DNA of 33,576 nt. Origin: Promicromonospora iranensis. GTDB lineage: Bacteria > Actinomycetota > Actinomycetes > Actinomycetales > Cellulomonadaceae. Of this stretch, positions 1 to 31,340 are shown piece by piece. The notes below the pieces were generated by a model, which did no database searches, was not told the DNA's origin, and saw only the letters and a list, made by a program, of their open reading frames with translations. The position numbers and the translations under genes were made by a program. Numbering within the stretch: the first letter of the stretch is position 1; every line of letters begins with the position of its first letter. Where the stretch lies: NCBI RefSeq assembly GCF_028994805.1, contig NZ_JAJQQP010000013.1:153075-186650 (forward strand), read 5' to 3'.

Positions 1-486
1 AGCTGCAGCACGAACTCGACCGGGATCGTGATCCGCGCTGCGTCATCGGTGAGCCACTCGCTTCCGATGAGGCCGAGGACCGCGGCTGTGATACGCGGTT
101 CGGTCGCGACGAGGCGGATGCCCATCTCACCGCCCTGGGACAGGCCGTAGTACCCGACGGGCTGATCGTCGCCGACGGAGTCCAGTTTCTGGAGTGCGTC
201 CAGGGTGGTCTGCCAGTCGGGCACGAGCTGTGACGCCACGGTTTCGCAGAGAGCAGGCCACGCTGGGCCGGCGGGCTCGCCGGCGGCCTCTCGTTCCTGG
301 AGGATCGCGACCAGCCGCTGGATCTCGGCGTGCTCCGGTCTGTCGCCGGTTCCCGGCGCGTCGATCGCGGCGACCGCGAAACCGCAGGTAGCGACGTAGG
401 GGATTGCTCGGGAGAGAACGCCCCATTCCTTCTTGTGCTGGCCACCGCCGTGCCCGATCAAGACCAGCGGCCGGGGGCCGGTGCTA
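1..486 (-). pseudogene. alpha/beta-hydrolase, 5' end cut by an IS element, 3' end outside window
   Basis: Reading leftward from 486 there is an open frame with no start codon. It contains PRPLVLIGHGGGQHK (oxyanion-hole strand and HGGG-type loop) and, about 110 codons later, the nucleophile elbow GYYGLSQGGE with its serine. Both are hallmarks of the alpha/beta-hydrolase (dienelactone-hydrolase-like) fold; the substrate cannot be told. The C-terminal part with the catalytic histidine lies beyond position 1. The frame stops at the CTAG site where the IS element sits. Joining the bases right of the element (1743 onward, read leftward) to this frame through one TA keeps the frame open (…GSRGFASTGPRPL), so the element interrupted a continuous reading frame. 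Few codons precede that point, so the original N-terminus may have been lost earlier. Hydrolase identity is secure; the interrupted state is very likely. Confidence 0.8.
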
Positions 487-503
487 GGGCGTGTTTTGGA
501 TTG
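487..503 (+). repeat. left terminal inverted repeat of IS copy 1
   Basis: GGGCGTGTTTTGGATTG is repeated exactly in inverted orientation at 1724-1740. The preceding TA (485-486) and the TA after the right end (1741-1742) are the probable target duplication. Confidence 0.85.
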
Positions 504-539
504 TGGTTCTGACCTGCGGGTTCGGCATGATGCGGGGTC

Positions 540-1383
540 GTGAGCGGGGTCATTGGTCGGCATGATCTGACGGATGAGGCGTGGTCGGTGCTGGCGCCGT
601 TTCTTCCGGTGCGAGCGCGGGGCCGGCGGGCGAGGTTTCTGCGCCGGCAGATCGATGGGATCCGGCACCGGGTCCGGGCCGGTTGCCCGTGGCGGGACGT
701 GCCGCAAGAACGCTACGGGCCGTGGTCGAGCGTGTATGGGTTGTTCCGTCGGTGGCAGCGTGACGGCACCTGGGAGCGGATCACCGACCGGTTGCGCACC
801 CAGGCGGACGCGGCAGGCCTGATCGAGTGGGATCTGAACATCGACTCGACGATCGCCCGGGCGCATCAGCACGCCGCTGGTGCTCGTAAGCATCCCGAGC
901 TGCAGAAGGAACCGCCAGACGGGCCCACGGCCGAGCCTGCTGACCACGGGCTGGGCCGTTCCCGAGGCGGGTGGAGCACGAAGGTGCATGCTGTGGCCGA
1001 GCAGGGGCAGAAGTTGATGGGCATGATCGTCACGGCCGGGCAGCGTGGCGACAGCCCGCAGTTCGCCCCGGGTCCGTAGTGACAAGGCTTACGCCTCGGC
1101 CGCCAACCGGGCCCTGCTGCGCCGGCGGGGCATCGGCACGACGATCCCGGACAAGAAGGACCACGCCGCCCACCGGCAGGCGAAGGGCTCGGCCGGTGGG
1201 CGGCCACCAACGGTGGACTACGAGGACTACAAGAAGCGGCACGCGGTGGAGTGCATGTTCAACCGCCTCAAACGCTGGCGGGCGGTCGCCACCAGGTTCG
1301 ACAAGTTGCAGGTCCGCTACGAGACCACCGTGACGGTCGCGGCGATCGATGACTGGGTAGCCGCGCTCGTGCGTGCGGGATGA
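540..1383 (+). pseudogene. IS5-family DDE transposase, frameshifted by a 65-bp deletion
   Basis: Starts at GTG 540 (MSGVIGRHDLTDEAW). The first frame stops at 1079 after GDSPQFAPGP; homology resumes in another frame at RVRSDKAYAS and runs to 1383. Against the intact transposase at 29995-30903, 28 residues (84 nt) between SPQ and DKAYA are reduced to 19 nt, and total lengths (844 versus 909 nt) agree with a 65-nt loss. The DDE residues survive in pieces (NIDSTIARAH, SDKAYA, HAVECMFNR) but in two frames, so the protein should be inactive. The intact copy could in principle mobilise this one, though the inner bases of the two sets of ends differ. Confidence 0.9.
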
Positions 1384-1434
1384 GTGCTGGCATGCTGTGC
1401 CGGTTCCCGTGACCTGAACGAGAGGGCTGACCTG

Positions 1435-1743
1435 GTGCGGTACTACGCGGACTCCGAGGGCGGCGACTACATCGAGGACCCCACCCATGCCGACCTCGTT
1501 GCTCTCGTGCGCGCGTTGAACCGCGACGACAACACCTTCTTCATCGTGTTCCCCGACGATGACGATCTGGAGTGGTCGATCGCTGTGCTCACCCGTCGAG
1601 GTGGTCTCGGCGGCTACGAGATCGAACGGTCCGACTCACGCACCGGCGAGAACAGCACGGTCCCTGCCGCCGATCCCGTCGCTATCGCGACCGAAGTCCA
1701 GGCCTGGGCCGAGACCACAGCCGCAATCCAAAACACGCCCTAG
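1435..1743 (+). CDS. IS-borne accessory protein, unknown function (intact copy)
   Basis: Predicted 102-residue protein between the transposase stop (1383) and the right inverted repeat. The start chosen is GTG 1435 with GAGAGG about 10 nt upstream; an in-frame ATG at 1393 would extend it. Key stretches are VRYYADSEGGDYIEDPTH, RDDNTFFIVFPDDDD, LEWSIAVL and GGLGGYEIERSD. A clear homologue lies at the same place in the second IS element (VEFYADAEGG, DSDNTFIVVHPP, GAFGGYELHRYD), so this is not a chance frame. The gene runs through the inverted repeat and its TAG stop uses the duplicated target TA plus the next genomic G. No signal peptide or membrane segment. I do not recognise the family; a small acidic accessory or regulatory protein is only a guess. 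Confidence 0.65.
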   Translation: MRYYADSEGGDYIEDPTHADLVALVRALNRDDNTFFIVFPDDDDLEWSIAVLTRRGGLGGYEIERSDSRTGENSTVPAADPVAIATEVQAWAETTAAIQNTP

Positions 1744-29310: not shown

Positions 29311-29664
29311 CGCTCCTGGGCGAAGCCGCCGCAATGTGGATCCCACGACGAAGTGCTGGACGTTCGCGTCAGCACGGCGCTAACAGCCCGCATGCCGGGG
29401 TCCTAGTTCTCGCGCTCGCGGGATCACGAAAGGAGCGGTCTCCACTACAGGCCGCTAGCCTGAGCCAGCGAGGCAACCGCCTCGAACACCGATGACTCGG
29501 CCCACCTGGCTGCCGTCATCGCGCCCACCAGCTCAGTCTGGTGGTAACGACAACCGATCGACGAAACCCCCACTGGTGCCCAATCTGGCGTTTGTCAGGG
29601 CATCGGACCAGGTCAGCGCGGTGAAGCGCGTTCATGGGCAGAAGGTACTGCTCTGCCCGTTCTA
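29311..29664. other. intergenic stretch, no gene seen
   Basis: No frame here looks coding on either strand. Bases 29563-29607 weakly resemble 31052-31094 on the other side of the IS (shared GAAACCCC, GGTGCCC and GGGCATCGG blocks). It may be an older mobile-element remnant. Confidence 0.4.
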
Positions 29665-29684
29665 GGGCCTGTTTGAGAATGGGG

Positions 29685-29974
29685 TCAGCGTCGGCTGACC
29701 CAGTCCAGGACGTCGTCGGCGATGGTGTTCGGTGCGGCGGCGGTGGTCTTGGCGCGTTCGTCGGCGTCGGGGTCGTAGCGGTGTAGTTCGTAGCCGCCGA
29801 ACGCGCCGACGTTCTTGGCGACCGAGAAGAACCAGTCGGCCTCGTCGACGGGCGGATGGACGACGATGAAGGTGTTGTCGCTGTCGTTCAGGTCGTCGAT
29901 CAGACCGATCAGATCGGCGCGGGTCGGGTTCGGGGCAGGCGGGTGCCGCCCTCGGCGTCGGCGTAGAACTCCAC
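29685..29974 (-). pseudogene. IS-borne accessory ORF, frameshifted copy
   Basis: Starts at GTG 29974, just after the transposase stop: VEFYADAEGGTRLP. It then shifts frame between about 29925 and 29950. The next frame reads NPTRADLIGLIDDLNDSDNT, FIVVHPPVDEADWFFSVA, GAFGGYELHRYD and DDVLDWVSRR, ending at TGA 29685. The 290-nt span is not a multiple of three, which confirms the shift. Homologous to the intact 1435-1743 ORF. Confidence 0.7.
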
Positions 29975-29994
29975 GGGCCCCAGGGTGCCAGTCC

Positions 29995-30903
29995 TCAGAC
30001 GGCCTTCACCAACGCCCGAGCCCAGTCGTCGATCACCGCGACCGTCACGGTGGCCTCGTAGCGCAGGGCAAGCTTGTCGAACCTCGTTGCGACTGCCCGC
30101 CAGCGTTTGAGCCGGTTGAACATGCACTCCACCGCGTGCCGCTTCTTGTATCCCTCGTAGTCGACCTTCGGTGGGCGCCCACCCGCCGAGCCGTTCTTGA
30201 GGCGGTTGGCGCGGTGGTCCTTCTTGTCCGGGATCGTCGCGCGGATGCCACGCCGGCGCAGCAGGGCCCGGTTGCCCGTCGAGGCGTAGGCCTTGTCACC
30301 ACGGACCCGGTCCGGGGTCGTGCGCGGGCGCCCCACCCCACCGGGCCGCGCCACGCGCACCTGGTCGAGCACCGGCCGCAGCTGAGGGCTGTCACCGCGC
30401 TGCCCGGCCGTGACGACCATGCCCATCAGCTTCTGCCCCTGCTCCGCGGCGGCGTGGACCTTGGTCGTCCACCCGCCGCGGGACTTACCCAGCCCGTGAT
30501 CCGCCGGCTCCTTGCGGGTCGGGCCGTGCGGCGGCTGGACTTGCGCGTCGCCGTCCCGGCGTGCGCCGTCAGCGTGCTGATGAGCACGAGCGATCGTGGA
30601 ATCGATGTTCAGGTCCCACTCGATCAACCCCGCACCGTCAGCCAGGGTGCGTAACCGGTCGGCCAGCAGGTCCCACGACCCGTCCAGCTGCCAGTCCCGG
30701 AACCGGTAGTAGACGCTCTCCCACGGCCCGTAGGCGTCCTCGGGAACGTCGCGCCACGGGCACCCCGTACGGGTGCGAAACCGGATCCCGTCGATCTGGC
30801 GACGCAAGTCCCGCGGCCTGCCGCCGCAGGACTTGACCGGCAACAACGGCTCCAGCACCGCCCACATCTCGTCGGACAGGTCATGGCGTCCCGCATCACT
30901 CAC
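29995..30903 (-). CDS. IS5-family DDE transposase, intact
   Basis: 302 residues from GTG 30903. An N-terminal DUF4096-type segment (HDLSDEMWAVLEPLLP, RRQIDGIRFRTRTGCPWRDV) precedes the catalytic domain with Asp101 (NIDSTIARAHQH), Asp203 (RVRGDKAYAS) and Glu259 (HAVECMFNRLKRWRAVATRF). All three catalytic residues are present, so the protein should be active. It cuts and joins the terminal repeats at 29665 and 30956. Confidence 0.94.
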   Translation of the reverse strand: MSDAGRHDLSDEMWAVLEPLLPVKSCGGRPRDLRRQIDGIRFRTRTGCPWRDVPEDAYGPWESVYYRFRDWQLDGSWDLLADRLRTLADGAGLIEWDLNIDSTIARAHQHADGARRDGDAQVQPPHGPTRKEPADHGLGKSRGGWTTKVHAAAEQGQKLMGMVVTAGQRGDSPQLRPVLDQVRVARPGGVGRPRTTPDRVRGDKAYASTGNRALLRRRGIRATIPDKKDHRANRLKNGSAGGRPPKVDYEGYKKRHAVECMFNRLKRWRAVATRFDKLALRYEATVTVAVIDDWARALVKAV

Positions 30904-30956
30904 GACACCGCATCATGCCGAACCAGCAGGTCAGGAACACAATCCCAAACGGGCCC

Positions 30957-31340
30957 TAGGTCGACTACCTCGGCGTGCGCGGCGTTTACCTGTGCCGGTG
31001 CTTCACCGTGTTGGGACAGGGGTGGACAGGAACGGTCTCCAGGGGCCACCTGAAACCCCACCGGTGCCCCACAGATTCGTGCCGGGGCATCGGGAGAATC
31101 GCTCGGGTGTCGTAGCTGCCGGCGTGCTGTGGGCGCGGTCGACACCTGCCCTGGCCGAGCGCGCCGCCTACCCGCACGCAGCGGCCGAGCGACCGATCTA
31201 CGTGGTGGGCCCAGACCGGGCGGGACGCCGTCGTGCAACTGCGACACGCACCGGGGCATGCCTGCGACTGAGGCCACCCGAGGCCACCGAGCCGGTCAGG
31301 ATCGATGGTGTTGGAGACGCCTGGCGCGTGATCGGCAGCT
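30957..31340. other. intergenic stretch right of IS copy 2, no confident gene
   Basis: Several open frames exist but overlap on both strands and have no ribosome site or recognisable motif. One plus frame gives LAERAAYPHAAAERPIYVVG. Near 31030-31095 the DNA resembles the left flank of the IS. Probably remnants. Confidence 0.4.

Follow-up and report, generated by a model that had tools for sequence, protein, structure and literature searches.

A conserved small gene within the terminal repeats of an IS5-type insertion sequence lineage in actinomycetes

Insertion sequences (ISs) are usually regarded as carriers of a transposase and nothing else. In a stretch of 33,576 nucleotides from Promicromonospora iranensis (contig NZ_JAJQQP010000013.1, positions 153,075 to 186,650; hereafter, the window), two IS5-type elements each hold a second open reading frame (ORF) between the transposase stop and the far inverted repeat. 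A first-pass annotation of the sequence had pointed out this ORF, and we recovered it as a 102-residue frame at 1435-1743 of the first element. Is this accessory gene, here called acc, a real gene, does it belong to a lineage of elements, and does it serve the element or its host? The two elements and their genes are as follows.

484..1743, plus strand: element 1, IS5-type, CTAG to CTAG, 1260 bp, delimited by sequence and inverted arms
540..1383, plus strand: element 1 transposase, broken by a 65-bp deletion, with open fragments at 540-1079 and 1045-1383
1435..1743, plus strand: acc of element 1, intact, 102 aa, GTG start, TAG stop, conserved in relatives
29662..30959, minus strand: element 2 (locus L003), CTAG to CTAG, 1298 bp
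29995..30903, minus strand: element 2 transposase, intact, 302 aa, NF033580 at 238.4 bits (cut-off 110), with DUF4096 and DDE_Tnp_1
29685..29974, minus strand: acc of element 2, frameshifted, with 2 nt extra relative to element 1 and two relatives

We found acc to be a real, conserved gene under purifying selection that lies within the repeats of an IS5-type lineage and recurs across genera. Over the aligned relatives, pN/pS was 0.59 in the acc frame and 0.79-1.41 in the other five frames, the absence of stops from the acc frame being a matter of construction since rows with an interrupted acc were excluded. The median NG86 omega was 0.43 for acc (92 uninterrupted copies, including the window and contig-cut loci and excluding L109) and 0.147 for intact transposases. 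This weaker selection, together with long antisense ORFs that overlap acc in some elements, is what can be said for acc as a functionless shadow ORF. The frame control contradicts that idea, as acc is the frame of lowest pN/pS and the antisense frame with few stops stands at 0.99; acc is also conserved across genera and intact at 83 of 92 loci. We therefore rejected the shadow ORF as highly improbable, in agreement with the first-pass annotation.

Homologues in plasmids and other genera likewise led us to reject the idea that acc is peculiar to this window. Searching plasmids by tblastn placed acc in 16 records, 15 from Streptomyces and one from Cellulosimicrobium. An alignment-based scan of genome contigs yielded 99 relatives, the best 80 of which were kept; a scan using the window protein alone gave 52 pattern matches and no confirmed one. 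Matches were present in 8 of 99 genomes of relatives (the host genome counted) and in 5 of the 396 genomes from the phylum, the latter including a chance match in an ABC-transporter region (L099) and a separate protein that has a related domain (L098), neither of which was accepted as acc proper.

By hand count, repeats of the AGG.C.GT.TT type, mostly preceded by CT, enclose acc together with a whole or residual transposase at 38 distinct loci, excluding L018, L049, L052, L062, L077, L085, and L095 as chance (a best repeat with unrelated ends) and leaving the duplicates L067 and L100 uncounted. These 38 elements are 1197-1355 bp long. Terminal inverted repeats, a criterion of the IS5 family, flank these NF033580-type elements, and in many Streptomyces elements the TAA stop of acc falls inside the right repeat. 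A candidate target-site duplication, judged from the flanks, is CTAG, which stands next to the two ends of many elements, with CTTG at the left of one copy in genome G540; that genome has two 1346-bp copies with a single base difference and different flanks. Of 36 elements, 31 have 68-77 nt between transposase and acc.

In the window, element 1 has CTAG at its two limits (484-487 and 1740-1743) and inverted arms (483-511/1716-1744) with 90% complementarity; its acc takes the TAG stop from the flanking CTAG, at the junction of right repeat and flank. The first transposase fragment scored 147.8 bits against NF033580 (cut-off 110). Alignment of both elements with two relatives (L112 and L107) displayed a 65-column gap in the transposase of element 1 and 2 nt in the element 2 acc that are missing from the other three rows, bearing out the annotated deletion beside an intact acc in one element and the frameshifted acc beside an intact transposase in the other. 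Element 2 is delimited by CTAG at 30959-30956 and 29665-29662. Because the elements are only 72.8% identical over 1226 aligned bases, they are distinct elements rather than the two copies of one that had been proposed. The motifs described as common to both products hold overall, except that element 2 reads VEFYADAEGG, with F for Y. In element 1, 31 nt separating transposase from acc (1400-1430) have no counterpart in element 2, L112, or L107. A scan of 400-1850 detected no promoter-like site and one terminator-like site, inside the element 1 transposase (0.4 expected).

The annotation had further seen reciprocal decay in the two elements. Among 92 loci, with duplicates and 11 loci cut by contig ends removed, both genes were intact at 35, acc alone at 48, the transposase alone at 2, and neither at 7. 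The transposase is thus broken far more often than acc (intact at 37 and 83 loci, respectively), and the reciprocal pattern is a coincidence of n=2; these counts take acc as intact where it is free of stops and matched almost throughout, with no start codon demanded (L080, with an altered tail, qualified), and come from loci recruited through acc, which favors intact acc and leaves loci without acc unseen, each search pattern being 8 residues so that most of the gene is outside the bias. At 76 of the 92 untruncated loci, recruited via acc and not via the IS, at least a transposase remnant lay just upstream, so that homologues do not lie mostly outside ISs, the outcome that the annotation had named as refuting its proposal.

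For lineage-private changes, omega of acc was 0.40 with an intact transposase (n=36), 0.43 with a broken or partial one (n=31), and 0.41 where it was absent, a remnant, or contig-cut (n=25), a value that covers the time before transposase loss and is no proof of selection in orphans. In pairwise comparison, the median omega of this last group was higher, 0.63 versus 0.41. We classed 26 loci as lacking a usable transposase, although 8 of them (L015-L017, L026, L056, L063, L103, and L110) are simply truncated at, or situated close to, the end of a contig; 8 of the 26 retain the right repeat as defined by our pattern. An orphan acc at the same site in different species was not found, the search returning only duplicates of one locus and four one-sided flank matches. 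The nearest upstream ORFs, seen for 19 of the 26, are mutually unrelated by eye, and acc of L008 follows a SUKH-family gene. This picture would fit leftover insertions.

Several acc loci were observed in other surroundings. The orphans of L021 and L062 lie behind a small ORF that resembles DUF397 by eye. L109 (1459-1878, minus strand), from another genus of the window's family, is a free-standing divergent homologue with no IS5 transposase match alongside. Four acc sites occur in the Promicromonospora host genome, one of them complete, alongside two copies of the transposase, of which one is intact; two of the acc sites are broken remnants with no transposase match. A broken remnant in this genome, L002 (G000:C8:130412-130651), adjoins an ORF that resembles a different kind of transposase, by eye an IS4-like one.

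Does this lineage always carry acc? A transposase-based search of 61 Streptomyces genomes (30 loci among the matches listed) and plasmids (1237 records; 17 loci among the matches listed) gave 47 loci. Behind the transposase, 18 bear other cargo with matching ends, 6 are empty, and 5 have acc and one an acc piece (L119-L123 and L141); 17 were dropped for lack of believable ends (L126, L128, L130, L132, L133, L135-L137, L139, L142, L143, L146, L147, and L164-L167). The right end of the six cargo-free elements, 899-1049 bp in length, is 23-35 bp past the coding end, and elements measure 1.2-1.36 kb with acc and 1.27-1.74 kb with other cargo. At accepted loci the ends match in 15-20 of 20 letters, against 11-14 in the best shuffles (weakest L149, 15 against 14); the ends of L131, L140, L145, and L148 were accepted without the shuffle control. 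The other cargo was assigned as follows.

Above the Pfam cut-off: Glyoxalase_6 (L124), GNAT (L125, L148), SnoaL (L131), NUDIX (L140)
Below the Pfam cut-off: DinB_2 (L145), Cupin_2 (L150), Zn_Ribbon_TF (L153)
Per record annotation: PNP-oxidase (L160), alpha/beta hydrolase (L162)
Unclassified ORFs: L154, L157, L158, L159, L161, L163

A 93-residue cargo ORF (2404-2685) of the related elements L149 and L151 had no Pfam match. Cargo is common to L149/L151, to L153/L161/L163, and to L157/L158, and across the 18 loci (L124, L125, L131, L140, L145, L148-L151, L153, L154, and L157-L163) it is mostly opposite in strand to the transposase. Since closely related transposases (L124, L125, L149-L151, and L153) bear unrelated cargo, cargo turnover there outpaces transposase change. 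No such exchange was seen for acc within acc elements. The place behind the transposase in these Streptomyces sisters amounts to a cargo slot, and minimal elements of this sort may serve as gene couriers.

The histories of acc and its transposase are closely tied. Their protein distances correlated (r 0.93 for 36 elements, 0.80 for the 31 Streptomyces-group elements), and 0 of 2000 permutations reached either value. In a midpoint-rooted transposase tree of 56 rows, acc elements from Streptomyces and Streptacidiphilus, along with a single one from Catenulispora, grouped together (95/92), and those of Promicromonosporaceae stood, weakly supported (87/45), beside other-cargo elements; a Rhodococcus element without cargo fell outside, and the cargo-free L127 fell among other-cargo elements. 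A single acquisition of acc is possible, as a constraint placing all acc elements together was not rejected (p-AU 0.444; 42 rows versus 9, five long rows excluded).

The acc protein is acidic, with a mean of 22 D/E versus 7 K/R, and models weakly suggest a small alpha-beta4-alpha protein. It had no match above cut-off in Pfam or NCBIfam, nothing firm in PHROGs (of 31 members, one reached 0.004 with an unnamed family) or PADLOC (best 0.023), no relative by sequence in the PDB (best E 0.098, UvrA), and no relatives found in phages; no DNA-binding domain was named by the Pfam, NCBIfam, or PDB sequence searches. The N-terminal domain of the DUF6891 protein L098 (862-1788, minus strand) is related to acc by profile (E 1.1e-8, one-to-one comparison). 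Foldseek alone returned nothing at E <= 0.001 for the acc models. The better model matched the immunity protein Imm1/DddI (PDB 6u08, PF14430) over its whole length; a second, poorer model did not repeat this, and the absence of DddI from its match list carries no weight. The Imm1 profile PF14430 had no match in 10 acc members (E up to 5) or in the 119-aa window ORF (E up to 1). YkuJ (PDB 2ffg) shares 5% identity with acc and is shorter, and we know of no link between YkuJ and mobile elements.

On balance, we favor acc as a passenger of this IS5-type (NF033580) actinomycete lineage, most likely directed at the host and inhibitor- or immunity-like. It would be cargo, lying in the space that runs from the transposase stop to the right inverted repeat, and the transposase would work on the terminal repeats and move whatever they enclose, as comparison suggests: the two-gene unit has moved, and sisters bear other genes or none. 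The two genes are likely co-transcribed, because acc follows in the same direction about 70 nt behind the transposase in most Streptomyces elements. Its product would most likely act on the host cell and not on transposition, as a small inhibitor or immunity-like protein, and a benefit to the bacterium could help the element persist. The modeled fold of acc provides weak evidence for this proposal.

Of the roles offered at first reading (regulator, protector, or passenger), the passenger is thus preferred, and regulation of transposition is its rival. In a role of regulating or assisting the element that carries it, acc might for instance be a trans-acting transposase repressor, kept by dead copies to damp active ones. 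Its strand and near-fixed place behind the transposase, the strict co-evolution of the two, the acidity of the protein, and the presence of acc behind every full-length transposase copy of >=79% identity (6 of 6 in the 61 Streptomyces genomes, among the matches listed) all speak for such a role; movement of sister transposases with other cargo or none, and the lack of a named DNA-binding domain, speak against it, and we place it second, as less likely. We are more doubtful still of a special case of the cargo proposal, in which acc would guard the host against neighbors' deaminase toxins as a mobile, orphan immunity protein like Imm1/DddI. The whole-length fold match to the better model suggests it, but that match was not reproduced, acc has no sequence link to Imm1, and the profile match of L109 is circular, L109 being a row of that profile. 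Nor is a recognized toxin adjacent: none was apparent by eye in the nearest upstream ORF of the 19 orphan loci seen, which was not a systematic search, and no deaminase toxin occurs in the annotated surroundings of nine plasmid loci, for which no toxin profile search was made. Unlike Imm1/DddI, acc is borne on an IS. Host-directed cargo remains the most likely role of acc.

That IS5 elements encode only a transposase holds as a rule; transporter ISs (tISs), which carry passengers, are however a known class (PMC7986276, PMC3129680), and sister elements here have other passengers. Such tISs as ISDsp3 of the IS6 family (PMC7986276) resemble the acc elements in being single ISs that enclose a passenger of unknown function; here the lineage is IS5-type, some elements sharing one conserved passenger on the transposase strand and their sisters having interchangeable ones, mostly on the opposite strand. 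The position of acc inside the repeats agrees with tIS membership, and its non-involvement in transposition is suggested by sister elements without it. Likeness to the IS427 group, a label from the first-pass annotation and the literature, lies in the IS5-family DDE transposase and short terminal repeats; Paracoccus elements of that group are 832-865 bp (PMC3281130), shorter than those with acc or other cargo, whose transposase is in a single frame. Tn3-family transposons with toxin-antitoxin passengers (PMC7157771) also keep small passenger genes, but with another transposase class and as a two-gene module, whereas acc has no partner gene. Our literature search, which lay outside subscription journals and ISfinder, found no account of this IS5 cargo lineage, a variant of the already known tIS kind with a conserved small protein.

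It is conceivable, though we consider it improbable, that these elements are minimal gene couriers with a cargo slot, some having fixed an immunity-like acc and sisters swapping small protective genes (glyoxalase, acetyltransferase, Nudix, hydrolase). If so, acc, spread across genera, would immunize hosts against interbacterial toxins and thereby account for its outliving the transposase. With one passenger conserved in part of its elements and others exchanged among their sisters, the lineage blurs the boundary between IS and transposon and offers a short natural system for dating and testing cargo capture. It also suggests that soil actinomycetes have a mobile pool of genes that are small and possibly protective, many of them annotated as "hypothetical protein".
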